NCBI RefSeq assembly: GCF_032854445.1 | Contig: NC_088301.1 | Coordinates: forward strand, 51,075,187-51,139,186 | Direction: 5' to 3' | DNA from: Liolophura sinensis | Taxonomy: Eukaryota; Mollusca; Polyplacophora; Chitonida; Chitonidae | Length of the DNA: 64,000 nucleotides | Part shown: one piece after another, positions 26,399-62,830 of the stretch | Layout: every line of letters starts with the position of its first letter | Position numbering within the stretch: the first letter of the stretch is position 1 | Notes under the pieces: generated by a model | The model's database searches: none | What the model was told of the DNA's origin: nothing | Seen by the model: the letters and a program-made list of their open reading frames with translations, nothing else | Position numbers and translations under genes: made by a program

Positions 26399-26433
26399 CG
26401 CCACATCAGCAATATTTCGGCCATATCGTGGCG
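26399..26433 (-). promoter_or_regulatory. 3'-terminal hairpin of the LINE RNA
   Basis: A six-base stem CGCCAC (26399-26404) / GTGGCG (26428-26433) encloses a 23-base loop. The arrangement and flanking GTTTAACG match the SINE hairpin at 62526-62561. It is probably the structure the reverse transcriptase recognises (inference). Confidence 0.65.
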
Positions 26434-26636
26434 AGAACAGGGTGAAAAAACGGGGCGGTTGAGGTTTTCGATATGGTGGTGAGAACATCAAAAACGAAAC
26501 ATAAATGTTCAAAATCAGATAAGAACAACCAAAAAACAGTTAAAACTCGAAAACCAGCATATTTTAAAAATAGTATATCAAGAAATCTTTATGTATATAT
26601 AACTTTTTATCTATAGATATTTATGTCAATTAAAAT

Positions 26637-27464
26637 CTATATCTTATGATAAAGGTCAATAGCCCTCAAATATTTTATGACAACATCGCCAGCGATGCTG
26701 TCAAACAAATCATATATAGAGCTGACCGTGTAGAATCTCTGCCGAACATGGGCAAAGTCTACACAGTCAACCAAGATATGTTTGATGCCATATTGGGCTA
26801 CACATCCAACACACTCAGGAGCACTGCTCCCATCTAGTATGAAATTCTGTGTCAGATGAGAGTGCCCAATACGACACCTCGTTAAAACTACTTGGTCTCT
26901 ACGAGACATTTGGTAAGTATAGGAATTGTAGCCAATGACAGGATGAATGGGATGCAGTTTATTATAAACCTGCAAGACCCATTCACCCTGCCAAAGGCGA
27001 CGAATATATTTAAGGATATTAGACTTTATTTCAGTATACAGGATTTTAACCCGAGATACAGGTTTATACATGGCAGCTTTCGCTTCCCTATCCACGACTA
27101 TGTTTCCATCCATACCAATGTGACTTGGTATCCAACAGAATATAATATCTTTATCTCTTTTAATTAGTTTTCTATGTTTGGTTATTATCTCAGGTATCAA
27201 TGGATTTTTAAATTTATTATTCTGAATTGCCAAAAGGCAAGACAGCGAGTCGCTGCATATCACTGCCCGCTGGGCAAAATATGATAAGGCCAGGAGTATA
27301 GCCCTGGCCTCTGCAGAAAAGATAAAAGATGAAGGTGGAAGACGAAGAGAGGTGACCCGCTGATCTAAGACAGCCGATGAGTTTCTAAAAGCACCCAGGC
27401 TGAGCCTCAAACCCTGGTGATGAACACGATCCAATATTTTATTATACGACTTCCTCGGGGTCAA
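26637..27464 (-). pseudogene. LINE ORF2 C-terminus: RNase H plus zinc knuckle
   Basis: 275 uninterrupted codons. RNase H acidic residues appear in SAEARAILLAL, ICSDSLSCL and WIPSHIGMDGN...D. Behind it CVGCVAQYGIKHILVDC gives CX2CX7HX4C, typical of the end of I-superclade ORF2 proteins. It is the best preserved part of the element. Upstream RT sequence is out of frame, so no intact polyprotein can be made. Confidence 0.88.
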
Positions 27465-27589
27465 GATGAAGTTTCCGTTAGTTACAAAAATGCATACCTA
27501 CGGTTTTAGACGTTGAAAATCTAAAAACATTTTCAGTTGCCATTTCTCGATTTTACTGAGACAAAGCTGCAACTGACGTTCGATGTTAT

Positions 27590-28100
27590 TCATATTTTTA
27601 GCTCAGTAGCATATAAGGAAATCATCCACGCGTAAAGAACCTTCTGTGCCAGATGTTAATGTTTTTGCTAGGCTATCTACCTTAAACTGACGATCAGATA
27701 AAACTGATATATAAATAAAGGTAAGCGACCTTTTAATGCCATTTCCGCGAGGTCTTTTAAAATACTATATTTCCATGTGGTGTCGTAGGCCTTTTCAAGG
27801 TCGAAAAATATCGACACCACATGTTCATTATTAACAAAACCATTACGAATAAAAGTTTTAAATCGAACAAAGTGATCTAAAGTAGATCGACCTTAACGAA
27901 AACCACATTGAATATTAGATAAAATCTTGTTGGTTTCGAGAAACCAAACAAGTCTATCGTTGATCATCCGTTCTATAATCTTACAAACACAGCTTGTAAG
28001 AGCTATGGGACGGTAATTATTTGGATCAGTATGATCCTTTACCCGGTTTGGGAACCGGAATAATACACGCCTCCTTCCATGATGGTAGAAAATTACCAGT
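27590..28100 (-). pseudogene. LINE reverse transcriptase remnant
   Basis: Translated on the - strand in shifting frames: SWKEACIIPVPKPGK (about 28085), NNYRPIALTSCVCK (about 28020), FFDLEKAYD (about 27810) and RVDDFLI (about 27620). The Tyr of the catalytic box is Arg and at least one frameshift is present. Confidence 0.8.
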
Positions 28101-28333
28101 TATCCAAATACTTGAGTAATCGAAAAGCCTTAGTTCTAAAAATACGAACCTGGTTTAAGTTATTATCATTAGGACATATGTTAAAATTTCGCTCGGCATT
28201 TTTGCGGTACTTAATGGCTTTGCGACTGTCCTTATCATACTAGGGTTTACTTTTGGATTTTGGATTTGTCGAGGTTTTAGGGATAGTTCTGTCGACAGCT
28301 CGTGAAACAAGCTCGTTAAATTTGAATATAGGA

Positions 28334-28720
28334 TCATCTGCTGCATAGAGAGTCTCTATGATCACTACCACAAAGATCGTCATGCACCTTCCAAGAAAAA
28401 TCCGGGAGAAGTGATGGATCTATGATAGTGAGATCGATAGCAGAATAAGCGCCGCTACCCGGATGTAAATAGGTATTAGAACCATCATTAAAATAACACA
28501 TCTCCTCCTTAGATAAGAAGTCTTCCACTATCTTGCCCTTATTATTTATGTTATTACTGCTCGAAAGGGGGTTATGGGAATTAAAATCTCCCAGTATTAT
28601 AAACAGTTTAGGTAATTGTTCTTTTAGATTATGTAACTGAAAAGCTGACAAACAATGGTTCGGAGGTATATACACCGAATATAATGTGACTGTTTCACAT
28701 AATGAAACACGAACGGCCAC
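28334..28720 (-). pseudogene. LINE endonuclease domain remnant
   Basis: About 128 codons with LYSVYIPPN, FIILGDFNSHN and a terminal GSDHRD, the order of exonuclease III-like endonucleases of LINEs. The spacer to the RT motifs is only about 250 bases, suggesting an internal deletion. Confidence 0.85.
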
Positions 28721-28987
28721 AGCCTGAACCTCTGCATGCAGAGCAACAGGGCTGTGGATAATATTGTTATTTATATATATCGAGGAGCCGCCAGCAGCTC
28801 GCTCTTCTTCAATACAATAGGTGCTATAAAGTGAATAATTATTAAGAGTTATTTTGTCTTTGTCAGATGTCTTCAGGTGAATTTCCTGAAAACACAGGGC
28901 AATTTAAAGATTGAACTAGTGTTATTTCAATAAAATTTGCCTTAACACCTCGACAATTCCACTGTATAATTTTGTATAAAGAAGACA

Positions 28988-29828
28988 TTATGGAGGAAGG
29001 CGTATGGGGGATCTTTTATCTTTATGTTTGGACCGATTACGACCCTTTCTTGGAGATTGGCTGGAAGATCTCCCTGGTGCGGGTGATGCATCTATCACAT
29101 CCACATCTGAGGTTGAAGGGGCAACGTCCTCCAACGATCCAAACCTATTAAAAGTTTGGACAGGGTCCCTAGTGGCCTTAGAGGGACGCTTCGTGGGACC
29201 ACTTAGTTTGTTATTTTCATTATGATGTTTGTTTCCGGACTTAGTTCTGGCAGTTTTTTTTTTTTTTTTTATCATGTTCAGGTTTATCAGTTTTTTTTTG
29301 TATAATATTTACTTGTTTCACTTGCTGTACTGTAGTGGTCTGGGTTGAGTAGGAATTGAGGGCAGGTTGAGCAGCAGGTTGTAAAGATATAGAACTAGGT
29401 TTGTCGTTTCCGATGGGCCAAGTCAAGGAGGTTTGTGTAGCTACAGATGTTACTCGCTTGACCACATTGGCAAACGAGGACTGCGGAGAAGTATTAGAGG
29501 GTGAGACTAATTTTCGGGTTTCCTGATATGATATATTGTTTTTGACTTTAATATTGATTATTTGTTTTTCCTTCACGAAAAGCGGACAGACTCAAGACGA
29601 GGCCTTGTGATCTCTATTGCAGTTGCACTTAACTGTGTTGCTGCAGTCAAAACCATCATGGTCCTCACTGCTACATCTGAAACACCAGTTTATTTTTACA
29701 TTGTCCCTCGCCGTTACCAAATTTTGGTAAGTTAAACAATGTGTCGTATTAGGGATGTATAAATCCACATTAACCCTATACGGGCCAATGTAGATATGCG
29801 ACAGTAGAGAGGTACTATTAAATGTCAA
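28988..29828 (-). pseudogene. LINE ORF1 (Gag-like) remnant
   Basis: Three open segments in different frames. The upstream one (29828-29592) has the zinc knuckle CFRCSSEDHDGFDC followed by a second Cys/His cluster. The downstream ones are Ser/Thr/Lys-rich with a poly-Lys stretch and no clear domain. Frame changes show decay. Confidence 0.75.
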
Positions 29829-30959
29829 AAAGTAGGTATTTAATTTGATGATGTTGCCAGCTTTTTGCTGTGAAACGTTTTACTCTGCCAACACTTTGTG
29901 GTTTTAATTCTGTACAGATTTCTTCTTCAGTTAAGTCTATGATATCACCATCCCTATCACGCATTATTCCCTGACAGCTAATCAGGGGATTGTTAGGGGA
30001 TGTATGAATAGGTATATCAGAGATTTTGTTTAATTATAATAAATGTTTAGATTGTTGTTTCCGGAAACATTCGATGAGAGTGTCTCCGGATCGTAGTGTT
30101 TTTAACAGTTTTCAAAGTCCCAGCTGCTCCTTCTAATGTTCTTTTTAACAAAAAAGAATGGATTTTAGAGGCTGGCTGTTGTTCATTCCTAGTGGAGGGG
30201 ACTATAAAAGCCGGCCAGTTGTCCTGTATGAATCAGATTCTAACTTCCTCTTTTTATCAGCGCCTGACGTGGGCTGACAGGAAGATCTGATAGATAGATC
30301 AGAAACGTTTGATGAAAGGTTGAAGGAAGTCATAATAAATATCAAATACGTATTCACGCGATGTGTTCCCCACCCACCACGGAGTGCCACCAAGGGCGAT
30401 GCCTGAACCTGGGGATACCCAACAGGAAACGCACCACGGACTCCACGTGAGGTATACTCGAATAGACGGCCTTAATTGGCAAACCTATTAAGTGAATAAG
30501 GTCACACATGAGACACATACTACTCGATTGACCCAGGAGCCACCACCTCAAAACATAGTCCCACAACAAAAACTTAGAAGGAAACAGTTATTCTCGAAGG
30601 ATTGATGTTATCGAGAAATGTTTAGGACCACGCAGAAGCAAAACGTGACCAAGCCCATTGATCGGACCTGGCCCACCCGACCCCCTGTCTCTCTCCAAGT
30701 AAGGGTTTGGGCGTGAGGATCTCGCAAGACCAGCACACCCTCAGCCACCAGGATCCCGTCCACGGAGATTACGAGTCGCAACCCACGGCAAACAGGCCGC
30801 TTCCTGGATGCCTCTCATACAACTGAGAAGATGTGAGCCTATGGTATTCATCGGGCTCAAACAGGAGAGTTCTAGGTTAGTCGTATTTTACGACAAGCTT
30901 GTCTAGAGGGCTGAGGTCTTATTCTTATCACCCGAAAACCCCACGGGGGGAGGGGGAGA

Positions 30960-30970
30960 ATGACTTTGAA
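30960..30970. repeat. Target-site duplication of the LINE, right copy
   Basis: ATGACTTTGAA, identical to 26358-26368, directly outside the GC-rich 5' end of the element. Confidence 0.92.
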
Positions 30971-31195
30971 GACAATGGATATCACTTGAATATAATATGA
31001 ATATAAGCGTCAAGTCCGACATTCATATACCATTCGCAGTCCATAAAAGGCGTTCCAAGTTGATAATCGCAAGATCCATTTCCAAAACAACGTTTAACAC
31101 TAACTCCCAAAGACAAAGGTATGTAAGAAATTATACAAATAATTTAAAGCATGTGCTTGCAGCGCGATTAGCACAGGATTTTTCCGGAACACTGC

Positions 31196-31260
31196 TCCTA
31201 AAAAGGTCAGTGAAAAAATCCTTGAGTACGACGCCAAACACCACTCAAATAAATAAATAA
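31196..31260 (+). mobile_element. SINE tail fragment
   Basis: CCTTGAGTACGACGCC, AAACACCACTCAAATAAATA and AATAACC match the 3' end of the tRNA-headed SINE. Confidence 0.6.
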
Positions 31261-31675
31261 CCCTCAAGATAAGTTATATCATGGCGGTCACTTTCTTAGG
31301 AGTATACAACCGACCTTTGGCAAGTTACTGACGAACTTTTCCACAAGTGAAGTACATATAAGTGGTCTTCATGGAATGTTAGTCAACGGCGAGGTGTCGT
31401 GTCTGGTTTCTTTGACATGGTGTTCCAGTCAGGCAGCACCATAAATATGTCAGCATTAGGTCAGACCTGTTACCAGGAGATACCGTCGTGCTATTACCAA
31501 AATGATAAATCCAAATAAAACGCACAAAATCTATCCACCCTTCCATCTGCCTCCGTCGCCTTCAAACACAAAAAACTGTTCACAAAGGCATCCTCAAGAT
31601 CTGGCCCTTGTGGATTGTTTTAATGTGATTGTAAATTAAATACGATTATCACACTTCATTCTGAGTAATTTTAGA

Positions 31676-31775
31676 CCATTTGCCAACTATCGCAGTGTCG
31701 TCACTGCTCTGGTTTTACCGTCTGTGCTGCAGTCTTTTATTTTATATAACATTTATGACAAGTAATAAAATACCA
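31676..31775 (+). repeat. Unclassified repeat family R2, fragment
   Basis: CCATTTGCCAACTATCGC, GTCGTCACTGCTCTGG and GTCTGTGCTGCAGT align in order with CCATTTACCAGATATGACGC, GTCGTTGCTGCTCTGG and GTTTATGCTGTACT at 41070-41125. Confidence 0.55.
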
Positions 31776-32396
31776 AACCCATGCTCCTGTTGTCTAATGT
31801 TATGCGTGGCAGATAAAACGTTTATTTTAAAGAAATCAGTACATATAATATAAGTAGGATTAATATGTATTTAATAAATATAGGGATACTTTGGCCTTTG
31901 TGGCTTTCTTGCGGCCGGGAATTAAGCATATTCTCCTGCTAAGCACCTGTTAAAGGAAGTCCCATTTCTGGCTCAGAACGAGTTGTGTGAAAGTTAAACT
32001 GTGCACTTATGTGGCATGTGCATTCAGACTGCAGTATATGACAGTGAAATGAAAAGAATACAAAGTGCTTTAGATAGGAAATGTTCACAGTGTGCAATGT
32101 TGTGACATGCAAATTCGAGCCGAATTGCAGAATATGGCGAGTAGACCACGGATGATTTACCAGATCTAAATTTCTTTAGGCGGGAAATGGTCGATCCCAG
32201 TTAAGAAACTATAGTCATTCTTCCAAAGTAACTGGCTCACTTCTATTCGGATAAGTACAGACTTCCTCAGTAGATGTCCTTTGCTGCCAGCCACCGGTAG
32301 CTTGTATAGGGTAGGCCCCTTTTACCTATCAAGACCATCTACCTGTCGTTCCAATGATTCATATCCTTTTAAAATAGCACCTATTCACGTGGAGTG

Positions 32397-32430
32397 TGTG
32401 AGTGTTTGGGGTTTAACGTCGTACTTAACG
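32397..32430 (-). mobile_element. 3' end fragment of the hairpin-tailed SINE/LINE family
   Basis: TGTTTGGGGTTTAACGTCGT followed by ACTTAAC equals the outer part of the SINE end at 62520-62540. The matching stem arm is missing. Confidence 0.55.
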
Positions 32431-35400
32431 TATTGAGGTGGAATCGTAAACAATACACAGGAGGTAGGCTGGTTTTCCGGAATATCACATGTGATGGTCA
32501 ATAGAAACACGACAAAAATGTTGTTCAACTTTTGCAGTCCTTTGTGTATTTGAGATTGTGTATGAATACACAGTCTTTTGTGTAACACGAGGAGTAACTT
32601 ATTGGTGCACGGTTGCCTCCCCTGTTCGTCCAAATGCTGACACTTATCAATATGACTAAAGTTATCAACATTGATATCGCCGCTATCACCAGACTCTGCC
32701 GCTCCACTGTGAGTATCGCATATTGGTCTCTATCTGAGGAATGGAATAAAATGAATACAATTACTGACTAAATATAACTCAAAGAGATATTCTTTATTTT
32801 AGGCGATTTTATTGCTGATAATAAGTCTCAAGAAGCGTCTATCGTATATATTTCGTTATAAGACTGCTATTATGTAAGTAAATTGCAACGTCTTGTCTTC
32901 TGTTGAAAATTAAATATGCCTCCAAACGCTATTAGATACAAACCAGTGAGCATTATCATAGTTTTATGCTAAACATGTTAAGTTTGAAAAGGAAACATTA
33001 CGAAAGAAAAAAAAAAGAAATTGATTATACAGAACGAAAATACGCCCGAACAACAGTTGCACAATAATACAACTAAATGTAGCATCCACGGTAGAAGATG
33101 AAAATACAGATCTAGAAAACTTGTCTACCAAATTAAAACAGCCAACGTTAAAAGGCTGTCTATTACCGTCTAATCCATAACAACAAATATGCTACAAAAA
33201 ATTTAATATATGCTATAATGCCCGTGTGACCAATCTGCAACAGGTTCTGACTATATAAAAGCAGTACATAATACTACAATATTCTGTGGTGCAGCGCTTG
33301 TATCTTATTTTACCGTATCAGGAAAAGCCTTTCCATCACAAGAGAAGAAAGTAGTTTACCTGTTTATTCTGTGGGACTATCCAATAGCCCTAGAATTGTC
33401 ATGCGATTAAATAAAATATAAAAATATGTCATACAGCATCTATGAATCATTCAATCTATATGTAGATACGGTTCAAAAACAAAACCATACACATTCATCA
33501 CACGCAAAACTAGAGGCATATTTGACATCATTCGATCATATTATTGGGACATCGATACGCCATTTGATTGTAGCCCTATACTGTTGTGACTATGTGAGTG
33601 ACTAAATGACGGCACTGACCTGTTAAATGGGCACCCAACCTTTGAAGTATTTCGTCTGTTCCAGAAGTCGGCACCATTTCTTGTATCTTATCTCCCATGG
33701 AATCGAGTCAACAATGCGATGAATTATTAACTAACATTCGGCCCGGACGTCCTTATGCCTACGGAGTATATATTGCTGAGGTCACTGATGTATAATGTGT
33801 ACAACCTGATCACACCTACCAGAGTTTTCCTAACATAGCTGTTACCAGTGCCTACTTCACATGTGTTGTACGAGTGATACTATCTAGCGGAACGGCCTAT
33901 TGTTTAGGGGAATATGCTGCATACTGTTGTCGACAAGTACGCGCGGGTATTTGGTTACTATGTAAACAACATCTCTCTTCGCGCCGAACAGCTTGTTGTC
34001 TGAACTTTGACCTTTGTATATTCCACTGGCATAAACACAGCTCGACACGGTTCATGTCTTGACTCGTCGGGTGATTATTTTTATACCTGACAGGTATTAA
34101 ATCATTGTCACTCGCTTTTTGACGTCACGGCTATACATGTTATACAGGCTTGAAAACTAGCCTATACATTTAACTATGACAAACGAAAAGCAAACTCAGA
34201 GCAAGTATTCTCATAGTGTTTGTATTAATTAACATACTTTATTGTTAAGCCTCACCTCACAGAAGAAACGATTGTACTCGTACTTAGGTCCCTACTCCTA
34301 AACAGTACATTTTATATCTTATTAACTGACAATGCGGTAATTAGTAATATTCATGTTTCGATCAACTTATTTAATGGGTAACTCTAACGTGCTACATATC
34401 CTGTGTACCACTTGTGATATGAAAACACATACACTGGAAAGTCTGAGGGACTACAGGAAAGAAGAAAAGACTTTGTTAAAGGGGAGAAGGAGTTCCCCGT
34501 ATAGCATACTAAGCATAAAGATATATTTGTACAATTACAGACGCTTACTTTGAAAACATAAATATTACCAAGTCTTAGGGTGGCAGTGTTCTAAGCAGAC
34601 GACATGAGGAAAGAACATGGCACGATACTCACCTATTTCTGACATGACAGAGATGATGAAGTGTGTATTATGGGCGTAATGCGAGTCGTGGTTCTTGATA
34701 CAAACACACAGTATGAAGGAAATTTGATGTGGGTGAAAAAAACACGCCTTTTAGAAGAACATAATTAATTCTGGAGACAAATGCCATCATCAGAATGCAG
34801 GCGACCACGTAAGACGATATGATAAAGTAAAATAGAAATAATTGCGCTTGTTCCAGTTGTTTAACGCACACCTGTACTTTGCTCTTTTGCTTAACAATAT
34901 CATTCAGACGTTAATCTCACTGATTTCACTCTTAGATATCTAGGCTACTTCAGTTCAAGCCTGATTACACACAATGCAATCAATCAGTAAGAATCAAGAG
35001 AATAAGGTGACATCTCTATGTCCAATACATTTGACAGGAGATAACACGAACAAAAATTGAGGTACTCGTCAAAGGCGATTCCCGTCACTCTGACTGCGAA
35101 TTTGTGGTGTTCGATTTGTACATTGAGAAAGCACTTGTAAAAATCCCTGAAACAAGACGTTCAGTATTAAATGAGACTTTAACCATGTGAAAGCTGGACT
35201 ATAATTTTGAAGCTGAGGGTCGAGATATGGGTCACATTTTGATGTAGGTACATGCTACAAATACATGAACTCACAGTTTTTGCCTCGAGAACGTTATGCA
35301 GAAGCCCATTTAAAACTCGACGCCGTCTTTCAGAAAGACACGTCGGCTTTTAAACGGCCCTTCAACATGCAAAACCTAGACACAAAATCTCAGAAAACTA

Positions 35401-35639
35401 AAATGAGCTTTAACGTGGAACATGTCTATTTTAATATTATAAAATGGACGATGGTTTATGCTTTCGTCAATTTTAAATAGATCCATTTTTAATAGAATAG
35501 TGTACGAAGTATAGCCTATTAGTTTCTATATCTCAGTCACACTCTTTTCCTTTTTTGTATGAAAACAAATGTAAACATATAGGTTACACTGCTACAATAG
35601 GTGCGTTTGAAGTTGGAACTCTTTGGTAACAGAAACTGT

Positions 35640-38600
35640 TCATGAATGAAGCTGAGATTTTCCGGTGATGTTAAAAATAGTCCTGTTGTTGTTGTAGTAG
35701 TTGGGCCTTCCTCTGTTGGCGATAGGAATCTCCCTGACAGACGGCCGCTGTGCGGTGAGGTATTGTGCCACTAGGCCAAGAGGAGGAGTCGGACCGTTTT
35801 TAGAGAATGGCCTGAACAGTCTAGTGTCATCAGCTGTAGAAGGGCGGGAAAAGTCACGTTCATCTGTAACCACAAACCAAACCGCTACAATTAAGTTTGT
35901 AAATTATGATATGGTATTATTAAAGATGTACTGCACTTTAGGAGTGAACCCCCAGCAGCTACGAGAGCGTGATAGTGACAAATGTGCACACGTAACCGGC
36001 AAATTACTGCCATACGTTTGTTTTTGTTTTGCTTTCCATCATCCATCCAGGTTTGAGAGACTCTCCTGTCCCGAACGTGGGAAGTAGCTTTGTAACAAAA
36101 TGAACGTGCCATGAACATTAACCATCTAAATGTGTCACACCTCAGGAGGTATATATGGACATTTCTGACAACACTCGAGTAAAAAGTAGCTTTTAAGTAT
36201 ACCACTTAACATTATGTCAGACAAAAGGAAACTTCCGCATATCTGAAAAGTGTAACAGCTAAGCATTGTCAGTGAAAAAAGTATACATTCGTCCATGTAA
36301 AGATTTTACCGTTAGATCGGCTACTCAAGGTGTTCCGCACTATGGCGTTGTCTTGTTTGCAAGTTGGTTGTGTCTCTTCAAAACTCCCCACCGAATTTAT
36401 TTTCTTCAGTTTCTTGGTTTGTCTGTACGCCAACCCGATTATAATGGCTAGTATGTTCACAAATACCAAACTCCCAAATACAATGCCCACGATTGCCCAC
36501 TCGGATAATTCGAATTCACTGGATGATCGTTCTGGAAAATAAAGCAAACATATTGTCGTCATTTTAATGACCAATTTTGGTGTAATGGCGATGCTTAAAC
36601 GTTTCACCAATCGCCCTTTTACCTTATATTACATAAGGAATTCAAGTCTTCCCTACGGAGCCGTAAAAGTGGCATCGTGAAACAAAAAAAAATTGGGAGG
36701 AAGAGAAAAAAAATGGCATAGTGAAAAACATATTTTTTGGAAGAGGAAATAAATTTTAAATCCCGTCTACACAGGTCAATTCCAGTTGCTTAAAAACACG
36801 TGTACATGCAACTATGTCTATACAGAAATAGTGACGTACTAAAAGAACCGCTATAGACCGACTCGTTTTACGTGCACAATGCATTTCCCATTATCTATGA
36901 GATAGCTTATAAAGAAAAAGATTTCAAAGAAATATATATGGACTAAACAAAATAAAAGATACAGTATACCGACCTGACCTTATATAGCTGACTTCTTACA
37001 GTCTCAACTGCAACAGCTAAATGTGAGAATACATGTACTTGATCCAGCCATGGCAGAACTAAGACGAGCTATATATGAATTAGGACTAAAGGCCTTAACT
37101 TTGTGTCACATACATGTATGAGGACGGCTGAGATAAGTTAGGGGATTTGAAAATAAAATTCGCGGCTCCGACTTTGAAATTCGGAGGTTAAAAAAAAAGG
37201 ATTTTCTCTTCCAAAAACTTTTTTACACCATGTTATTTATTTTATTTTTTTTTCTTTGCTCTTCGAAAATTTTTTTCCCATGTCACATTTTGTTTCTCTT
37301 CAATTTTTTTTTCACTATGTCACTTTTACGGCTCCGTACTTTTCGCGATGATAGTATACCATACATTTACTAACGAAAACATTTACCACACTTTTTAAAC
37401 ACATATATAACTTGTTAAACGTTGTAAGCTTACCATCAGCTGTAATTTCAATGTGGAGATAAAACTCGGCCCCATTTAGCCTGTTGACAGTGAATTTAAG
37501 TTGTTCATCTGCTTGGTAAAGCTTTTCCACTTTAGGTGGCATTACGAAATTGAAGAGAGCCTGTTAAACACAGAACGGTACTATGTGATAGGTTACATTT
37601 GATTTCATAGTACAACCAATACATCACGAACATTTCAACCTGCTCAGAGCAACGTTCATCTAAGGAATTTAAGCTTTGACACACGGTACTGTCGATTTTA
37701 CTCTCGTTTTTAAAAAGGTGTTTTAAGGTTTTTGTTTGTCAAGAGGTTGGGAGATGCATTCCAACGCAAGACAAATTGCTTCATACCACAAGTACTTTTT
37801 TGATAAAACAATGGGCTGTTGAAAACTAAAAGCTTCTATTTCACAACATTCTGACAATTAAGATATTCCACAGGTTATATCGCTTCATGGGGCGAAAATG
37901 AAGGTTGTTCTAGGTACATCCGATTTATACGCACACAGTGAACAATGTTTGAGTTTGCTGTATGTCCCTATAGTTAATCTGGATACAACTGAGAGACTAG
38001 CTGCTGATTTTTACCTTTGTCCAAAGGACATCATCTACTCCCGCTGCCACCAAGAGGGCGACATCTTTGCTGATCAGGGATGTTTCCTTAAACACATAGC
38101 GCAGTCTGGTGTCTCTTTGAGCTGCAGTTAGCTTCATGGAGCAGACTGGCGCATTTGCGTTTTGTCCGTCGATGATAACGCTTACTTGGTCGGTAAGACT
38201 TACAAAAGTCTCAGTGTTTTCGCACATTGAGTAGAAGTCAACTGCTAATTCAAACACAGAATTAAGAGTAAGTCTATAAAAACTGTGAGTTCATTATTCA
38301 TGTCATAAACCTTTTTAATTAAACCATATTTAAATCAGTTTTGTGTTGATTTTTTTACGAAATTTGATTGGGTATTATTGAATGAACTCAGTAATATTTC
38401 AGTGGTCTATAAACGTCGGTCGGATCAACAGGAAGAGGAAACACGCGTACACCAGATACACCTTAGCATTTTCAAGAAAAGCGATGGAATAAATTTATTC
38501 AGTACATGAAAAGATTTGACATCTTAAGAAAACAAAGCGTGATGCGCTATGTATACACGTCTGTGAGTGTGTGTTTGTGTGACTTGTTGCTATACCAGCG

Positions 38601-40293: not shown

Positions 40294-40319
40294 GTCTGTC
40301 CGTCCGTCCGTCCGTCCGT
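40294..40319. repeat. (TCCG)n microsatellite
   Basis: Five consecutive TCCG units. Confidence 0.9.
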
Positions 40320-43233: not shown

Positions 43234-43239
43234 TTTATT
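43234..43239 (-). terminator. Poly(A) signal of gene A
   Basis: AATAAA on the - strand about 205 bases after the gene A stop codon. Confidence 0.5.
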
Positions 43240-51960: not shown

Positions 51961-52715
51961 ATGACCCAACAAACCTCCTGAAATCACGCCTAAGCTCTCC
52001 ACGTCAATGACCGAATAAACCTCCTGACACAAAACCTAAGCTTACCACGTCAGTAATCAGACATCACACCTGAACTCACCATGCCAACTGACCCTAGTAG
52101 CCGTCTGACATCACGCCCAAGCTCTTCACGCCAATGATCAGACAAACCTCCTGACATCACACCTAAGCTCACTACACAAATGACCAGACACTACACCTAG
52201 GTTTACCATGCCAATAACCTAACAAACCTCCTGACATCACGCCTAAACTTACTACGCCAATAACCTGACAAACCTCCTGACACACCACGTAAGATCACCA
52301 TACAAATGACCTGAAATCACATACATAAGCTCAAAACGCCAATTACCTGACAAACCACCTGACATCACGCCTAATCTCACCACGTCAATGGCGCGACAAA
52401 CCTCCTGACACAACACCTAAGATCACCATACAAATAACCTGACATCACACAGAAGCTCACAATGCCAATTACCTGACAAACCTTCTGACATTACACCTAG
52501 GCTAACCACGCCAATGCCCTGACAAACCTCCTGATATATCACATCTAAGCTCACCACGCCAATGCTCTGACAAACCTCCTGATATATCACACTTAAGCTC
52601 ACCACGCCAATGGCCTCACAAACCTCCTAATATATCACACTTAAGATCAGCACGCCAATGCACTGACAAACCTCCTAATATCACGCCTAAGTTCACGACT
52701 CCAATGACCTGACAT
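51961..52715. repeat. Minisatellite, unit about 46 bases
   Basis: About sixteen degenerate units of the form ACAAACCTCCTGACATCAC - GCCTAAGCTCACCAC - GCCAATGACCTG. Some units lack the AAACCTCC segment and are about 37 bases; the last units expand to about 49 bases with TATATCACA. Frames on the - strand across it are artefacts of the repeat. Confidence 0.88.
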
Positions 52716-53433: not shown

Positions 53434-53632
53434 GGGCCTCCGTGGCTCATGTGGTTAGCGCGCTAGCGCAGGGTAATGACCCAGGAGTCTCTCACCAATG
53501 CGGTCGTTGTGAGTTCAAGTCCAGCTCATGCTGGCTCCCTCTCCGACCGTACGTGGGAAGGTTTTCCATCAACTTGCGGATGGTCGTGGGTTTCCCCCGG
53601 GCTCTGCCGGGTTTCCACCCACCATAATGCTA
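53434..53632 (+). mobile_element. tRNA-derived SINE, 5' complete, 3' tail missing
   Basis: GGGCCTCCGTGGCTCATGTG and TTAGCGCGCTAGCG form the A-box arm. GTTGTGAGTTCAAGTCCAG carries the B-box. CCGTACGTGGGAAGG, GGATGGTCGTGGGTTTCCCC and CACCATAATGCT follow. It stops before the AAGTGAAATATTC module. Confidence 0.88.
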
Positions 53633-54102
53633 TAACCTTGTGATAGTGATGACAACATAGCATTTTGAGTAATTTTTATTAACGACAGAAGTATCCAATC
53701 AGGGGATTCCGATTCCCCATCATCTTGTTGGTTTGGGGAAATGCCAGTCAACCTCAACCTCATGGTACACAACGCCAACCTCATGGTACACTGAGTGCGC
53801 CTTCCGGTTATTAGGGACGTTCGTTCGTGTAAGTATGCTGACTTGTAGTTTTAATACCCTATAATTTACTAAATGAGTTGGCATGAGAATTTAGACGAAA
53901 TGTTATTATTTTTTACATAATGTAAAATAAAGAGTGAGAAAATATTATTATAACCCTTGGATAAAGATCAGTAAAAACATATTACGTTACGCTAACTTCA
54001 AAAATTAAATCACCTTGAAAAATAGATAAAATTTAATGTGGTTCTCCTGCATGACCTAAGCCTATAGTTTTGTGACGTAGGCTTAATAGCAAGTCAGATG
54101 TC
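53633..54102. other. Downstream region of gene C
   Basis: Probable 3' UTR of the - strand lectin gene; a TTTATT (AATAAA on -) near 53676 is the nearest clear poly(A) signal seen. Confidence 0.4.
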
Positions 54103-57100
54103 CTATATTTCTTTTTCACAGATAAAGTAAAATGCCTTGTCATTTTCGGTGTCATCCAGGCCTTGTTTAATATTATTATTTATCCAGACGTAGCGAAGTG
54201 TACCGTTGGTGTCTGGTTTTCCCGAAGCCCACATTTGACTTCCCTCAGGCAAAGCCTGGCCGTTGACCCAGTGCCAGAGTGGTAGGCTGTCCTCATTACT
54301 GGCTCCAACGTGGAACCCTTCAAACTTGGCCGATAAACCTGAACCCAAAGAGAAACAACCGTCCAGTTTTTTGCTGATTTAATCAATATTTTAAGGACAC
54401 TACAACTCCTCAGGGGTAAATTTTTTCCATTATACATATTGTTTCTCCATTTTCTTATCCTCATCACTTAAAGATTTAAATTTAAATTCTAATTTTAAAT
54501 ACCCCAAAAATTGTACAAAGAGTATAAGTTGTAGTGAACCAAAGCAGTCGTGTTTTTCTTGTTCCCACATGTCTGTGAATAGACACATTCTAGCAGGTTT
54601 TCTGAGAACTGTCAAAATAAAACACCAATTTATGCTTTCATGGGGCATTATAATTGTAAAACTTTTACATGAGTAGGTTGGTTTATTCACATTTAGACTG
54701 GAAGCGACACAATGCTTTATTAAAGTCAATTTTCAAACAAATTAATGGCTCATTTCTTTTTCCCTCATTTCCTCCCTTTTTGTTTTTGAGACAGTCGCGA
54801 GGTGGATTATTTTTATTTCTGCCAATATTTTCAAAGTAATGCATTGAAAACTGGTACACATATAGTTAAGTTAAAAAATGTCCCACAAATTTTTGACATC
54901 TTTCTGGCTTTAAAGACGTTAGTAAAATAAAACATTTTTCTCTTTTATTTTCGATAAGGCGAAAGTTTCGAAATCACCAGTCTTTTAGTTTTCAGAATAT
55001 ATAGGTATAATTAATGACTATTCGATCATTATTTTAGGCTACACAAGGCAAATTGCAGAAATTTGCTGAAGGCTCTAGTATCGTTAAGCTGTATCATTTT
55101 AAGAACATGTAATATGTTTCCACCATTCGACAAAGGCTTTGCTTAAGCATGACAGAGTAGAGGAAATCTTACTTGGTGATGCTCGGATTGTGTTCACGAT
55201 GTAATTATATTTGTCCAAAGTGTTGAGAACAATAAGATCTCCTCCTTCCTCAAAGCAGATGTCACGTGACTCTGTCCATGTCTGCTTGATCTTGTTGTGT
55301 ATCTTGTAACATATGCCTGTTGCTTTATTGTGCAGATAACCACTGGAAAAGGGACAGGCAGCTGGAAAACGACATGATTAATAAGTTAACAGATTCCGTT
55401 TTGGCGCAATACAAATATTGGTAAAGTCAATTTTACAAGTAATAAAAATGCCGATGTCAACATCAGTGTGTTCACTTATGAAAAACAACATGTAGCGTTT
55501 CCTAGGAAACCATCTATATTTTAATTACAAATTTTGTTGAGAGATTCACCCGTATACAGCCACATTCTTTCTGTTATATTTAACCTAAGAGGTTTACGCT
55601 CTTGGAGGAGCTGCTACATACAGATAGGGTTGTTCCACCAGTGCCGATATTCCCGTGCTAACATTTTAGACATTTTATTTAAAGGGGTCACACGCCCATA
55701 TCAATAGCTCCCTGGCAGGACCAAGTGACACGGCATCACTTGCTACCGAATGAAGGATAAGTAACACGGCATAACCAGCTCCCCAACATGGGCCATCACA
55801 TCCTCCCGTACCAATTACAAGAGACATGGCATCACTTCCTCCCGAACCAAGGACAAGAGACCCGGCATTACTTCCTCGCGAACCAAGGACAAGAGACATG
55901 GCATCACTAGCTTTCTGTCAGGGCCTAGTGACACGGCATCACTTTCTCCCGAACCAAAGACAAGAGACATGGCATCACTAGCTTTCTGTCAGGGCCTAGT
56001 GACACGGCATCACTTCCTCCCGAACCAAGGACAAGAGACATGGCATCACTAGCTTTCTGTCAGGGCCTAGTGACACGGCATCACTTTCTCCCGAACCAAG
56101 GACAAGAGACATGGCCTCACTTCCTCCCCTAACACGGCGAAGTAACTCAGCATCACTAGATCTCCAACAAAGGCAGGGTAAGACGGCATAACTTGCCCCT
56201 GAACCAAAGACATTGAACACGGTATTAAATGCACCAAGGACAAGTTACTCAGCATCACTAGCTTCCCCAACCAGGGCAAATTTACACGGCATCACTAGCC
56301 CCTGAATCCAGACAGGTAACACGATATCACTTGCTCCCGAATCAAGGACAAGTATTACAGCACCACTACCCCCGGAACCAACGACATCACGGCATCACTG
56401 ACTTCCCAGTCCTGGTAAAGTGTAGTGTAGCCTGTTTTTATACGTTGTGTATAGGTTTTAAAACTTTTGGTTGGCCAGTAGAACTACTGCTTTGCATTTT
56501 AGGCTTGTAACAATTTTGCTACGAGGAATAGTAAAATGCCCCCGCCCCCACGCCCACCCCCGCCACACCCCGGACAAGGGTAATGTTCTCAGTGTAAAAT
56601 TAAAAATATTTGTGGAGTGAACGCCAGTCCTTGACACAACAGTTATTGCAGTAATAACTTTTGACATTTACTGGGAAGACGGAGCCACGGGTATATTGCT
56701 ATCCAAGTAGGGTAAATGGTAGCACGTTTGTATGTAATGTTTATGAATGAAGTTTTGCTGTCTTTGACGATAAATCGTAAAATTCATTGTAGTCGCAGCA
56801 TAAACCACAAGCAGGTAATAAATGTACGCCCGTCCGCAAATGTCATTAACGACTGACACGATATGCGATTTATTTACGACTTAATAGTGTCTTTAAGATA
56901 TAATTATGTGTCAATTTAAAACCATGGAGCCATGCTCTTTTTACTTCGCCTAGTGTTCTACTTAACCGCACTTTTCCTCAAAAATTAATAGTTGCGCCAA
57001 ACTGGAGGTGCACTGGATGTTTCTACAACAGGAGGTGCGGATGTTACAATGGAATACAGCAAGAAACTTGAGAATTGTTCCTGTACCGTTATTTGTTATT

Positions 57101-58004
57101 ACACAACAGCAGGTTGCTGGCAGACCTTAACACGTACAGCCAGAGAGGAAGCTAGCATGAGCTGGACATGAACTCAAAGCCACCACATTGGTGGGGGGCT
57201 CCTGGGTCTCCTGGGTGTGCTAGCCCCCTCCGTCACTAGGGCCTCACTTTATAAATCAAACATACTACAATACCTGGATACTGATAATATTTATGGCCAT
57301 AAAACATTGCTTACATATTTCAGGCATTATTGAAAACAAATGACTGTTTCCCTCTACATGAATTAATCCTAATTTCTTATATTATACATTTCTCACTGCT
57401 TCAGTGCTTTGTGTTAACACTGTTTTGGTCTTGCAATTATCAACCCAAAATATCCATGAAGATTAAGACATACATGTAATAAGGAGGGGAGCGAAAGTCA
57501 CAAATCAGATCTAATTATTATATATGTATATGTAATGAATAGGGGATTTACTGTATAGGTCACACAAAGATTTCAACTCGGATCTCTACGCCCAAGGTCT
57601 GACACTCTGAATTGTTGCGCCACTCTACTCATTTGGCGCAACTATGCTGTCTGCTAATTAATTTTTTTTTTAGAAATGTCCTTATTTAAGTACTTACCAT
57701 CAGTAACAGCGTAACCGGTGCTTTCGTTGACAAACTTTCCCCTAGTGTCAGAAAGAAAGGCAATGCTGTTCGCTTGACAATAGTTTCCAGCCTTGTGGAA
57801 AAAGATCGTTTGGCATTTATCTTCCTTAACACAGGCAGTCAGACATTCCAATGCAGTAGTCACTGTCCACATTCGGGCGATGACAAAATCTTCTACTATT
57901 ATATTGCAAAGGTTTGCAGAAAACACAGCTGTTCTACCACGCCGCAATAAGGCTGCATAGGAACAACATAGAAAAATTGAAAGTGGTAAAATTCCCTTCA
58001 GCAT
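54103..58004 (-). CDS. Secreted PAN domain plus C-type lectin domain protein (gene C), complete
   Basis: Probably a secreted carbohydrate- or protein-binding lectin of the immune or mucosal type. Three - strand exons, 58004-57698, 55361-55173 and 54338-54103, join at two phase-1 introns to give 243 residues. The chosen ATG starts a signal peptide (MLKGILPLSIFLCCSYAAL). An in-frame ATG at 58112 exists but puts 36 polar residues before it. Residues about 25-90 form a PAN/apple-like module (ALECLTACVKEDKCQTIFFH, GNYCQ). Exons 2-3 form a long-form CTLD: ACPFSSGY and ICYK (N-terminal pair), SRDICFEEGGDLIVL, then WHWVNGQALP, W-A-S-G and FICEKEI. The Cys pair normally flanking the WND region is absent and the sugar-specificity triplet reads KPD, so calcium-dependent sugar binding may be altered or lost. 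Confidence 0.88.
54339..55172 (-). other. Gene C second intron
   Basis: Donor GTAAGA at 55172, acceptor TTTGGGTTCAG before 54338. AT-rich; nothing else was recognised. Confidence 0.7.
55690..56415. repeat. Minisatellite with 71-base higher-order unit
   Basis: The basic unit is about 36 bases (GGCATCACTTCCTCCCGAAC, CAAGGACAAGAGACA). In the middle, alternating subunits form a 71-base unit with starts at 55930, 56001 and 56072, almost identical copies containing TAGCTTTCTGTCAGGGCCTA. Flanking units are more diverged. Open frames across it on the - strand are products of the repeat. Confidence 0.9.
56538..56573 (-). other. G-quadruplex-prone tract
   Basis: Five C runs of three to five bases (GCCCCCGCCCCCACGCCC, then ACCCCCGCC and ACACCCC) make the - strand, the sense strand of gene C, a G4-type motif inside its first intron. 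Confidence 0.55.
57119..57245 (-). mobile_element. SINE 5' part, reverse orientation
   Basis: Read on the - strand: GAGGCCCTAGTGACGG, GCTAGCACACCC, AGGAGACCCAGGAGCC, GAGTTCATGTCCAGCTCATG and CTAGCTTCCTCTCTGGC. This is the tRNA-like head and central module without the tail. Confidence 0.75.
57325..57415 (+). repeat. Repeat family R1, fragment
   Basis: CATTATTGAAAACAAATGAC, CTACATGAATTAATCCTA and TTTCTTATATTATACATTT parallel the corresponding words at 25476-25535. Confidence 0.5.
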
Positions 58005-61000
58005 AATGTTGCCTCTTCTTGAATTTCCGCAATGTTCCCAAACAATGAAGTTACACTGATTACGAATGAAAGAAAAGCGCTGAAGAAGAGAGCAGGCCAA
58101 GATGTCTTGCATATAGCAGTATCTCGTAGGAATTTGATTTTATTGGAATCCGCTTAATCGACCTTGGATGTCATAAACACTTGAGCAAATCAAAAAAATA
58201 TAGTTTGGCATTGCCAGTAGTTCTTCGTTTCACATCATTGTGAACGACTGAAAGAAATCGATCTTTCGCACAGTTCAGTATATTGATCCTAGTATCGGAA
58301 CAAACATTACTCTTCAACGCGTGTCGTTTTGCAATGAAATTCTATTCAAGATGAAGTATTAAGAAATCAATCATACACAGTCAACAAACTAAACTATTTT
58401 CAGTTACTCCATCGATCCAGTCTGTGTTTAAACAGAATGTTTTCCTGTTTTCAGTCGGCCACGGAGAACCCATTAAAGTATTTATATACAGGCCTTGACT
58501 TTTTAAATCAAACAAATGTTCGTGGTATTGTGTGCAAATATTTTAACATTGTAGATCCCCCATGCAAATCCTATTTTCTTATTCTAGAAAATTCCACCAG
58601 TCTATATAAGACCTATGAAAGCAGGTCAAAGGGGGAGAAAGGAGAATTATTGAGAGTTTTGGATGCTTTCGCTGTGTGTTACTTTAGTAGGCCTTTTGTG
58701 CTGAATTTTGGTGTCTTTATAGCCTCTGGCTTTGTTGTATCCTATCTCCACCGAGCACTTGTTCAGTCTGAACTTGTACATTTAATTTGTGCTCTTGTGT
58801 ACACAGTGCTTATTTGTACACCGACCCTGCCTGTGGAATTTTGTGTATATTTTGTCATACACTTAGTTATACTGTGGATTTTCCCTCTTGTGAATATTGC
58901 CTCTGTGCAATTTTTAAGCATTGTGAGTATATGCGTCCGTTTGGACTTGACACCGTTGTACATGTAAGTATTTGTATAGATACTACTATCCTTTCTTGTT
59001 AAACTTAAGTACTTTAGTATTTGTAAAAGTTTTGTTTTCTGTTCTTGTTAGACCTAATAAATTGTTGTAAAATAAAATCTGCTGGTTTTGGTTACTTTTT
59101 TGTGCGGCTAAACTGTCGTGTATTTCGAACAAGCCATCTCTTTATAATATAGACAGTTTGGGTTGTAACAAAAGAAACTCAGAAATTTTTAAGTTGGTAT
59201 AGCTAAATACAAAAATGAGTTGCATTTGATTGCCAACTAAACCTCCTGGGGGTATAATTTCCGAATAAGGTCAATCAAGAGAATTACAAGGGGAAAACAG
59301 TCAGTGATCTAAACTGTCCATGCAACGAGATAACATGCACACGAAGCAGCAAGGTTCGCCCTTGGACCGCACGTGTAATCTATCTGATGGATTGAAAGCG
59401 AATTATAAGTCTAATAAACCAAATACAACCATTCTTTCTATCGATAATGTATTATAAAGTATTCTTAATTCCCAACGATCTGTGCGGCAGAACTGAATTT
59501 ACATGTTTACATAATTACAACACAATATCGTGTCCTGACATTTGAAGTTCGCTGAACTCCGTCCGTCGTCTAGACAACGAAGGAAGGATACCTATTCAAA
59601 ATCAGTCTTTGGCCATTTATCTAAGGATAGCGATTCGGGTGAGTTGATGGTCGACAGGTAACCCATGATAAAACAACATTCGATCGTTCATTCACAGTTA
59701 CATACATGTCAGTAGACATCTGGAAGTCTCAGCTGTATGCAGATGATAAATAACAGCACAGTTTTTTTTACGGTAAAGAATGTTATGTGTTCATCACAGT
59801 ACTGTATTTGTTGGGTATCCAGGTTTAGAGTATAACACGCAATACAGATGGAGGATTAATTTATAATTTTTGTGATGACAGTTTAGAAGTATTCCTACAT
59901 ATATGTTAGTATGTAGATGAGGAAACTGTATTTTAAGCCGCTGTACGTTTTTGAACATGAAGTAGGTACTTTATGCCACTGCTAATATCCATTGTCAGCG
60001 AGCTGTAAGTATACCTCCATGTAGTATACATCTGAAGCTTAACGACAACTGCATTCCCTGGTTGGGGCTTTGCACGCCTATCAACTTCACACCGACCATT
60101 ACATGTTTGTCATTAACAACTGATAGTATAAGTTGGTGTAGGTGCAACTGGTGTATGGATTGAACACGACTGTATAATTCTAGTTAGTTAGGTATTAACA
60201 TTTCAGACGGTATTTTCTTGACACATATTCATACGCTAACTAACGTGTTTTTGTTCAGCAGTTTACGCAATGAAAGTGATTCACATTCCTTCAGTGGTTA
60301 CAAGGCGGTATAACATCACACGCGAGGGCGCCTATCACAAGTACAATGAGTGTATTTTTCCTCTTGCCATAACTAGTGTACATGAAGACAGAATTAGTAT
60401 GTGACAGTTACAAGAGATGCACTTCGTCATTTATTTCAGAGTGGCTTATTTTTTATGTGTAGTTTGTCAGAAACTGGAAATGTTGGGTAGGGGTTGGAAA
60501 ACTTACAACAATGAGCCATATGAGAATACGCTCATGACAAAGAAGTATTCCAGCTAGGTTCGGAAACCTGTCTGAAGTGTAAGGGAGGCCACTCGTTGTG
60601 CTCTTTACAGTTATGATTTCCACAACTTTGGATTCCTTATGTTCAATTTCTCAAGCTCAGTTGAAACTCATATTTTGCTTATCACAACTTATATAATAGC
60701 ATGGTACACGATTTGGATACTGATTAAATTGATGAACATTCTTTGCACCTTTCCAGAATCATTGAAAATTGTTTACTGCCCGGAATACTACATACTTTAT
60801 ATACTACTGATTTCATTCATTCGCCTAGAACGCTGTTTGCGTTTTTCCATTATCATTATTTTTTATGTACTTTCTGAATTCTTTGGTTGCCTCTGTTGAA
60901 CGTTGTTTTGGAAACTGTGATTATTGATCATGGATGTTCATTATGACTGACGTCCACTTTCAAACATTTAAACCGGAAACATGCATGGGAAAGACCACTT

Positions 61001-61951
61001 AACAGCATTAAACGTAATGCTATGATAAAAGATTATTTCCACACAAAGGTATACTATTCATTTGCTGTATGATGCGTTCAAAACTGGCTGCTTTGACCCA
61101 TATAGATTTATAACCTGGATATTGCTGGAAATTTTTGACTAACCTTGTGATTTGTGGTGCTGTTTCACAGGGCGAGTCACTAAAAGGTTTCATAGCACTA
61201 AGGCCAGTTTCCATCCGATTGGCTGATTTATACCACACGGCAAAACAAGGAATTCAAACAAAACCATATGTTTAACATATACTTTCCAAAGTTCCCAGTT
61301 TACTATTTCTTTGCGTGTACACAGAAATTGTCTAACGTGTCCACTCTTAAACACCTCAAATGACTTCAGTTCATCTCTGACTGGTAAATAATATTGTGCT
61401 CAATCTTACGTCAGTTTTAGTTGTAAATCATCATATTGCATTTATTTGGTTTCAAGTGTGTCCAACAGTATGTTGAAAAGACGACCCAAAAATTACATCA
61501 AAGGATAAATGGCCACAGAAAGTCAGTCAGGCAAAAACAACTGCTAATAGGCAAACATTTTTCTTCCTCCGATCATGGTTCAGCATTCAAATAATAGACA
61601 TGATTTATCCTTCTTCAAAGGATAGTGCTTCAAAGGATAGATGCTGGAGGCTGGTTCAGCTTTTCGTTATGGCGTAAATAACAATGTTATGGGGATAATT
61701 CAATCACGATTCTAACATACCACAACTGTTCAGATGCCACCAAAGAAGTCAACGCACCCACTTCTACACTTTCTGTACCACCGCATGCCATTTGTATATG
61801 TCAAGACATATCCTATATTCGACTTTATCATTCAGTCAGAACAGTTCAGACCGCTAATAATAGATTGTTTTAAAAATAAAGTACTTAGGTACGGGTCTTG
61901 ATTTAATCAACATTCCGCGAATGCTATGTCGAATTACTTCAATACACGTGA
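58005..61951. other. Gene-poor region upstream of gene C
   Basis: The promoter of gene C should lie at the left edge. A T-rich block at about 58500-59130 has TATATAAG (58603-58610) and AATAAA twice (59056-59061, 59071-59076) and might be a solo LTR. Repeat R1 copy 3 is at 60645-60905. No gene could be supported. Confidence 0.5.
60645..60905 (+). repeat. Unclassified interspersed repeat family R1, copy 3
   Basis: Contains AGCATGGTACACGATTTGGA, TACTGATTAAATTGATGAAC, ATTCATTCGCCTAGAACG and TGAATTCTTTGG, shared in order with the copies at 20165 and 25303. Confidence 0.65.
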
Positions 61952-62242
61952 GGGCCTCCGTGGCTCAGTGGTTCAGTTGGTTAGCGCGCTAGTGCGGCGT
62001 AATGACCTGGGAGCTTCTCACCATTCCGGTTGCTGTAAGTTCAAGTCCAGCTCATGACGGCTTCCTCTCCGGCCGTACGTGGTAACGTCTGCCAGGAACC
62101 CGCGGATGGTCATGGGTTGCCCTCGAGCTCTGTCCAGTTTCGTCCCAACTTAATGCTTGCCGCCGTCGTATAAGTGAAATATTCCTCAGTACGGGGTAGA
62201 ACACCAATCAAGTAAATAAATAAATAAAGTCAACATACGTGA
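61939..62242 (+). mobile_element. Full-length tRNA-derived SINE with imperfect target-site duplication
   Basis: The element runs 61952-62229. Head: GGGCCTCCGTGGCTCAGTGG, GTTAGCGCGCTAGTGC. B-box: GTAAGTTCAAGTCCAG. Middle: CCGTACGTGGTAACGTCTG, GATGGTCATGGG. Tail: CCGCCGTCGTATAAGTGAAA, AGAACACCAATCAAG, TAAATAAATAAATAAAG. Flanks TCAATACACGTGA (61939-61951) and TCAACATACGTGA (62230-62242) match at 11 of 13 bases. This is the best reference copy in the window. Confidence 0.9.
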
Positions 62243-62514
62243 ATTTCCTATCAATATACTAAACCAATCGATTCCAAGATATTGAATTACGCAAAAAGCA
62301 GTTAAAGATTTTGAGATGTCTCATATATACTTCAGGTAGATACAGTTGTGACTGTGAATCGTCAGACTTTACTTACCATCCATGTAAGCATGTCATGACT
62401 GGTAACCTTAATATTGTAAATAATGATGAAGTCTGCTTGTAAGGGGTCCGATGTATAGAGAGCCGAGAAAGATAAATATGAAAACCAATCAGAAAATTGC
62501 CCTTTCGGTTCTTG

Positions 62515-62830
62515 ACAATTTTTAACGTCGTACTTAACAATTTTTCAGTCATATGACGACGAAGGAATCTTTATATAGTGTGCATGTAATGTCCCTCCTT
62601 GTTGCTGGACGGATTTCCACTGCTCTTTTATCTAGTGCTGCTTCACTGAAACGCCCTACCGAAGGCAAGTAAGGCGCCCCACCCGAATCATTATCCTGAT
62701 ACGGGTCAACCAGTCGTTGCACTATCACCTTCATGCTGAACGCCAAGCGAGGAAGTTACAACTTTCTCTTTTAAGGTCTAAGGTGTGACTCGATCCAGGG
62801 TTGACCCTGAATCTATCGCTCCCGGCTTAT
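62515..62830 (-). mobile_element. Second SINE family with covarying 3' hairpin, 5' truncated
   Basis: Read on the - strand: a B-box-like CCTGGATCGAGTCACACC, AACTTCCTCGCTTGGCG, AGGATAATGATTCGGG, GGTAGGGCGTTTCAGTGAAG, then GATTCCTTCGTCGTCATATG and CTGAAAAATTGTTAAGTACG ending ACGTTAAAAA. The A-box part is missing. Its end forms the stem at 62526-62531 / 62556-62561. Confidence 0.75.
62526..62561 (-). promoter_or_regulatory. 3' hairpin of the second SINE family
   Basis: CGTCGT (62526-62531) pairs with ACGACG (62556-62561) around a 24-base loop. Position, loop words (CAAT, TTTC, CATAT) and flanking TTTAACG correspond to the LINE hairpin at 26399-26433. Confidence 0.65.

Follow-up and report, generated by a model that had tools for sequence, protein, structure and literature searches.

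Stringent-type LINE/SINE pairs of eel and zebrafish (UnaL2 and its SINEs, ZfL2-1 and ZfL2-2) are reported to end in a stem-loop common to the long interspersed element (LINE) and its short interspersed elements (SINEs), followed by a short tandem repeat; the stems can be swapped as long as they pair, whereas the loop is specific (PMC4176376). In the ZfL2 LINEs, recognition by the protein of the second open reading frame (ORF2) is general for the stem and specific for the loop, and both are required for movement (PMC4176376). The hairpin that Ohshima described in L1-clade LINEs and SINEs of plants likewise joins a variable paired stem with compensatory changes to a conserved loop and 3' flank common to the LINE and the SINEs (PMC3747384). 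A shared LINE/SINE 3' hairpin is thus of an already known kind. Here we describe a new member from the chiton Liolophura sinensis, found in a 64,000-nucleotide stretch of contig NC_088301.1 (positions 51,075,187 to 51,139,186, assembly GCF_032854445.1), which we call the window and number from its first base. It is carried by a LINE and by two further families, SINE A and family T.

We consider it probable that a stringent-type LINE group recognizes its templates by this hairpin, that the SINEs carry paired versions of it, and that the hairpin and its tail would be a sufficient template. In the window the LINE and SINE A both lie on the minus strand; in RNA order the hairpin of these elements comes first, then TTAA, then a simple repeat (Table 1). 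A sequence-only reading of the window had reported the outer stems of both elements, loops of 23 and 24 nucleotides containing the words CAAT, TTTC and CATAT, and a TTTAACG flank; on re-reading, its coordinates, arms, loop lengths and words were all exact to the base. Besides this outer stem there is an inner stem of 4 bp, and both RNAs fold to one two-tier shape: a 6-bp outer stem (7 bp in the LINE), a bulge, the inner stem and a 9-nt loop. The hairpin and the start of the linker are common to the two elements and the tandem repeat is different, while one loop base sets SINE A (TGAAAAATT) apart from the LINE and family T (TGAAATATT). A pattern built from both hairpins, allowing up to three mismatches, had an expectation of 0.00 when the window was shuffled 100 times. 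In the window itself it matched at the SINE site alone; the LINE site was missed because its loop is one base shorter. Across the assembly (609,464,459 bases in 632 contigs), free stems combined with fixed TTTAACG, CAAT, TTTC and CATAT and flexible spacing gave 5,987 matches, compared with 0 for the reversed control. Nearly all of the matches listed are of the SINE type and one is of the LINE type. No match to the SINE hairpin was present in the viral contigs that were scanned for it.

Intact ORF2 copies, encoding reverse transcriptase and RNase H, occur in the LINE family, which is abundant. An intact relative (L014) matches RVT_1 with an E-value of 2.2e-34 and RNase H at 38.9 bits (E 1.2e-9), and a genome search with ORF2 matched at all 136 scored places among 3,636 candidates; of these places, about 40 fall within open frames of 1,238-1,241 amino acids and about 35 belong to one array on contig C16. 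This long tandem array (G000:C16:40988-755813) holds many ORF2 copies, mostly as 551-amino-acid frames, at a spacing of about 15,975 bp. Young copies (L015-L018) end in CGCCAC-GATATGGCTGAAATATTGCCGAT-GTGGCG-TTAAGCCATAAT-(CATT)n. SINE A gave matches at all 40 scored places among 4,165 candidates, and the other 39 are 89-90% identical to the window copy over about the stretch 62521..62824. By eye, a full copy elsewhere in the genome (L010) shows a tRNA-like head containing A and B boxes, followed by a body, the hairpin, TTAAACCCCAAG and (CACT)n, and has a target-site duplication (TSD); ARAGORN, run on the window, found no tRNA there. Family T, which was absent from the sequence-only reading, follows the same hairpin plan several times in the window (CGCCGT-CGTA-TAAG-TGAAATATT-CTTG-AGT-ACGGCG), and may resemble the V-SINE and RUDI families, which are marked by a V domain and a RUDI body. 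A covariance model of eight hairpins found nine window places with E ≤1, three of them part of the model and five of the remaining six belonging to family T. The same 3' hairpin was also seen, at four sites elsewhere in the genome (L032-L035), in a second SINE family, which differs in its body and ends in a (CATA)-like tail.

Support for selection on pairing comes from comparing one young copy of each family. Six of the ten base pairs vary, all six on both sides, and all 30 cells of the three-family table are canonical. In the order LINE/SINE A/T, the outer pairs are C-G, G-C, C-G/T-A/C-G, C-G, A-T/G-C/G-C and C-G/T-A/T-A, and the inner pairs are T-G, G-C/G-T/A-T, G-C/A-T/A-T and C-G/C-G/G-C, with inner-stem versions GGC/GCC, GAC/GTT and AAG/CTT. 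The three outer pairs that the sequence-only reading had found to differ between LINE and SINE stems, each on both sides, are confirmed by this table. When the 3' letters were dealt among the families, an equal result appeared in 0.28% of trials (P 0.0028). In an eight-row alignment, 96.3% of cells are paired, compared with 25 to 64% when the partners are slid, and six pairs have changed on both sides. None of 500 shuffles reached the pairing percentage and covariation score, and 8 of 500 reached six pairs. If the likeness were plain homology, by descent or recombination, the double changes would have arisen by chance with no selection on pairing. The near identity of loop and linker makes homology likely in any case, and the decay of stems without compensation within SINE copies also speaks for this explanation; the same pairs vary in both arms, however, every cell pairs even where C-G has become G-C, and slid structures yield 0 to 2 double-changed pairs against six. 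We find chance double changes scarcely credible.

Several points count against selection on pairing. Single-sequence folding z-scores of -0.99 and -1.80 are hardly better than shuffles, and the number of further standard pair types in the eight-row alignment (9) does not rise above shuffles, 455 of 500 being as high. The eight rows were hand-picked and their structure was taken from folding, so that the result leans in favor of pairing. Three families give limited power, and outer pairs 5 and 6 set only the LINE apart from the other two. Finally, the covariation across genomic copies that the sequence-only reading had proposed as a check was negative. Among 40 SINE-type copies (25 picked for a changed 3' arm and, in list order, the first 15 without a change), the 3' arm had 28 changes, of which 1 was compensated, 12 still pair and 15 break the pair. 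Inserted copies are probably not under selection and would hence drift without compensation, which would make the copy level the wrong one for refuting selection on pairing. Selection on RNA structure, as proposed, is supported between families and not among copies.

The search for SINE-type hairpins without SINE sequence upstream, made in the hunt for a partner LINE, turned up insertions that consist of the hairpin and its tail. Their order is TSD, one base, hairpin, linker, tail, TSD, and it was seen in all three families. In one example (L019), the hairpin stands alone between direct repeats, TCATATTCATGG, and many of the first 20 SINE-type sites inspected are alike. The SINE A pattern for such sites gave 137 matches, compared with 23 for a control whose junction lies a few bases further upstream (four positions, fewer exclusions, by pattern count only). 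The LINE pattern, with no LINE upstream, gave 120 matches, compared with 1, again by pattern count only, for an upstream-shifted control with the same number of exclusions. We inspected 40 of the 137 SINE-type sites; for the 120 LINE-type matches, 20 regions covering 19 single sites and a section of an array on contig C10; and for 55 T-type matches, 20 regions with 21 sites. An exact TSD of at least 7 nt ending at most 4 nt from the stem was present at 23 of 40 SINE A, 14 of 19 LINE and 12 of 21 T sites, and mismatched upstream and downstream flanks gave 62 of 1,560, 10 of 342 and 14 of 418. The duplications are mostly 11-13 nt long (29 of 49), with similar lengths in all three families. Additionally, 40 SINE-type hairpins that had not been selected by their upstream sequence included four hairpin-only insertions, with TSDs of 8 to 16 nt (L095, L097, L099 and L118). 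One further hairpin-only insertion (L025) has a SINE-type 5' half, a CATT tail and a 14-nt TSD, and may combine a SINE hairpin with a LINE tail.

Not all of the insertion evidence points the same way. The T pattern gave 55 matches against 19 for a control with the same number of exclusions, taken by pattern count only, which is a weak excess. No exact TSD of 7 nt was found at 17 of 40 SINE A, 5 of 19 LINE and 9 of 21 T sites; some of the sites without a TSD are other SINE copies (L028, L032-L035), and at least 4 of the 21 T sites (L136, L137, L142 and L144) appear by eye to be SINE copies that have lost small segments. Several T rows being deletions would suit the idea that the search simply picks out, as hairpin-only sites, SINE and LINE copies that were truncated at random from the 5' end or deleted internally in the ordinary way; the patterns require an intact hairpin with foreign DNA just outside, so the position of the end is partly selected. 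In more than nine of ten SINE A and LINE matches listed, however, the end lies one base outside the stem, the upstream-shifted controls for these two families reach only 23 and 1, the TSDs abut the unit, and the unselected sample still contains hairpin-only insertions. Random truncation thus appears very improbable.

This 5' edge is precise to one base in the LINE and SINE A and weaker in family T. Base tallies cover 100 of the 137 SINE A matches, 83 of the 120 LINE matches (100 listed minus 17 tandem-array rows) and all 55 T matches. A T stands just outside the stem in 95 of 100 SINE A matches and in 77 of 83 LINE matches; family T, another point on the opposing side, has its expected C there in just 39 of 55. 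The 17 excluded rows lie in one satellite array of about 63-bp units on contig C10, whose units hold the 5' half of the LINE hairpin (L058, G000:C10:19135700-19136300), a satellite apparently seeded by the hairpin. In each family the outside base of hairpin-only inserts is the base found at that position in full copies, and is for that reason probably templated; the 5' end would then probably be one templated base beyond the stem (T, T and C for LINE, SINE A and family T). At 49 TSD sites, the downstream copy lacks this base in 25 and has it in 13, the other 11 having larger gaps, a pattern that fits a base belonging to the insert. At position -2, the SINE's own base, T, occurs in 25 of 100 SINE A matches listed, which is no excess of microhomology. 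About 12 nt upstream, SINE A targets often have TC (of 100 matches listed, 67 have T at -13 and 53 have C at -12, with C at -13 excluded by the pattern), which also fits the CACTC tail.

Such an edge could be made in two ways. RNAs that start one base 5' of the stem may themselves be copied and inserted, the hairpin plus tail being enough, or the insertions may be products of aborted target-primed reverse transcription (TPRT), in which the ORF2 protein copies a full RNA and drops off one base past its own binding hairpin. We hold aborted TPRT to be a serious possibility, at somewhat less than an even chance. A fixed stop next to a presumed protein-binding element, in three families, is what would be expected if release follows copying of the binding site. 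The junctions look directly joined, however, judging by the outside base in the downstream copies, and show no excess of microhomology at -2. In assays of zebrafish Nimb-2_DR, direct joining is reported to have been linked to full-length inserts (82%), and microhomology or extra bases marked the junctions of 95% of the truncated ones (PMC4245944). Because the SINE's own base is not in excess at -2 and the TSDs are similar in length, we lean slightly toward short RNAs over a halt of the enzyme. Going further, and more tentatively, the bare hairpin and tail of about 60 nt may exist as an RNA-protein particle in its own right, whose 5' end is fixed one base beyond the stem, and may serve in nature as a minimal substrate for retrotransposition; by pattern counts, it would have given some hundreds of insertions from the LINE, SINE A and family T. 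We would put this at rather less than even. If true, the 5' end of hairpin-only inserts would mark the edge of the stretch of RNA that the LINE protein covers, or the point where RNA decay halted against the protein, and could be read from genome sequence alone.

A variable paired stem with a nearly fixed loop, as in the ZfL2 and plant hairpins, makes it most likely, by analogy, that the chiton hairpin is the recognition signal of the ORF2 protein, borrowed by SINE A and family T. We propose that this protein binds the hairpin at the 3' end of the RNA and that reverse transcription would begin behind the hairpin, in the simple repeat, at a nick in genomic DNA. The loop and linker would be held by sequence and both stems by pairing, which would be why the families keep compensating. 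Since SINE A and family T carry such hairpins, they would use this kind of machinery. The sequence-only reading had proposed that the SINE is mobilized by a LINE of this lineage, a view that we share as an inference from the common hairpin, the similar TSDs and the hairpin-only insertions of both kinds.

The sequence-only reading had also suggested looking for a LINE that exactly matches the SINE's hairpin. We found no LINE with the SINE A or T hairpin among the matches listed and the inspected sites lacking SINE flanks, a search that a LINE sharing the SINE's upstream letters would escape, and 37 of the 137 SINE-type hairpin matches lie outside the listing that was searched. This result, too, tells against our reading, as do the unlike simple repeats of the families: (CATT)n in the LINE, (CACT)n in SINE A and (AAAT)n in family T. 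Patterns that exclude SINE flanks gave hairpin-only insertions, deleted copies and the second SINE family in place of a partner LINE. Patterns with other inner stems (301 matches, 100 of them listed, and 6 matches) yielded mutated copies for the most part, along with a few old LINE-like ends (L079-L083, L089), and no new young LINE. In one candidate (L130), three frames of one strand, read by eye, contain no LINE frame. Each family may instead be moved by a LINE of its own, several partners having related hairpins, with the window LINE moving only itself and LINE-type short RNAs. ZfL2-1 and ZfL2-2 are reported to have failed to move with each other's hairpins (PMC4176376), and the tails and the one-base difference in the loop point the same way; on the other side, no second young LINE with the hairpin appeared among the matches listed and inspected sites, and TSD lengths are similar in all three families. 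We place separate partner LINEs close to, though short of, an even chance. The sequence-only interpretation as a whole thus stands in part: pairing between families and, as an inference, SINE mobilization gained support, and covariation among copies and an exactly matching LINE did not.

Elsewhere in the window, a 519-amino-acid open frame (22978-24537) looks like a Kv1-type potassium channel. The potassium-channel editing signal K_chan_RES was the only Rfam family that matched the window at gathering scores (24370-24483, 57.5 bits). Imperfect tandem-repeat arrays lie at 51961-52709 (units of about 46/34 bp) and 55700-56421 (units of about 36 bp).

Table 1. Mobile-element features of the window, with the matches that define them.
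Feature	Position	Strand	Evidence and remarks
LINE insertion, damaged copy	26369..30959	-	exact 11-nt TSD TTCAAAGTCAT at 26358-26368 and 30960-30970; coding remnants
LINE 3' simple repeat (CATT)n	26369..26386	-	like the tail in young copies L015-L018
LINE 3' hairpin	26399..26433	-	outer CGCCAC/GTGGCG, inner TGGC/GCTG, loop CGAAATATT; covariance model match 26392-26434, 61.9 bits (site part of model)
LINE ORF2 C-terminal remnant with RNase H	26637..27497	-	PF00075, E 1.2e-4, 22.7 bits, under the Pfam cut-off of 25.8
LINE ORF2 endonuclease remnant (APE)	28334..28903	-	PF14529, E 8.5e-18
ORF1 remnant, CCHC zinc knuckle CFRCSSEDHDGFDC	29643..29684	-	motif scan alone
SINE A copy	62521..62824	-	5' part of tRNA-like head not recognizable, simple repeat lost
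SINE A 3' hairpin	62526..62561	-	outer CGTCGT/ACGACG, inner TGAC/GTTA, loop TGAAAAATT; covariance model 65.2 bits (site part of model)
Family T 3' hairpin, one outer pair broken	62160..62203	+	55.7 bits (part of model); repeat family D8
Family T hairpin, decayed copy	24965..25008	+	36.4 bits, E 9.7e-7; not in model
Family T hairpin, decayed copy	14493..14536	-	35.2 bits, E 1.9e-6
Family T hairpin, decayed copy	7772..7815	+	31.9 bits, E 1.2e-5
Family T hairpin, decayed copy	5952..5992	+	28.4 bits, E 8.4e-5
Family T hairpin, decayed copy	8902..8935	+	21.8 bits, E 0.0034; repeat family D8
Further covariance-model place, no family assigned	5607-5646		25.5 bits

The domain content of the LINE suggests filing it as an RNase H-bearing element of I type, for which a clade name would need a tree. 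It has the Nimb-like domain set of the I superfamily, with APE endonuclease, reverse transcriptase and RNase H in ORF2 and, as a motif only, a CCHC knuckle in ORF1. Nimb LINEs carry RNase H. They include Nimbus of Biomphalaria and Nimb-2_DR of zebrafish and have been placed in the I group; the TSDs of Nimb-2_DR peak at 12-13 bp (PMC4245944). A duplication of about 12 bp would be expected of a Nimb-like LINE, and both the 11 nt of the window copy and the 11-13 nt of most hairpin-only insertions agree with this. The I-superfamily clades reported from bivalves and other molluscs are Nimb, Ingi and one unknown clade (PMC10294476), and in the genome of Liolophura japonica SINEs account for 3.24% and LINEs for 6.70% (PMC11068029). 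Our comparison with Nimb is one of domain content and TSD length, and the text covered from the Nimb-2_DR study makes no mention of hairpin-only inserts (PMC4245944).

In the literature searched, which did not extend to the central mollusc SINE papers, we found no description of hairpin-only insertions with a one-base-precise edge, and we make no claim of priority. Tailless retropseudogenes are reportedly one class of very short units mobilized by LINEs. Short internally deleted elements (SIDEs, such as Persaeus) are another (PMC6740152); these are internally deleted LINEs, whereas the chiton inserts keep only the 3' hairpin and tail and have one fixed 5' end. Natural insertions of this form would delimit the smallest template that suffices, down to its exact edge. 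The plant hairpin belongs to another clade and has another sequence. UnaL2 and the ZfL2 LINEs are of the L2 clade, whereas the chiton ORF2 has RNase H and the chiton hairpin has two stacked stems, a 9-nt loop and one architecture for at least three families. With three families on one hairpin scaffold and a LINE with intact ORF2 copies to clone, the chiton genome makes directly testable what a LINE enzyme reads on its own RNA.

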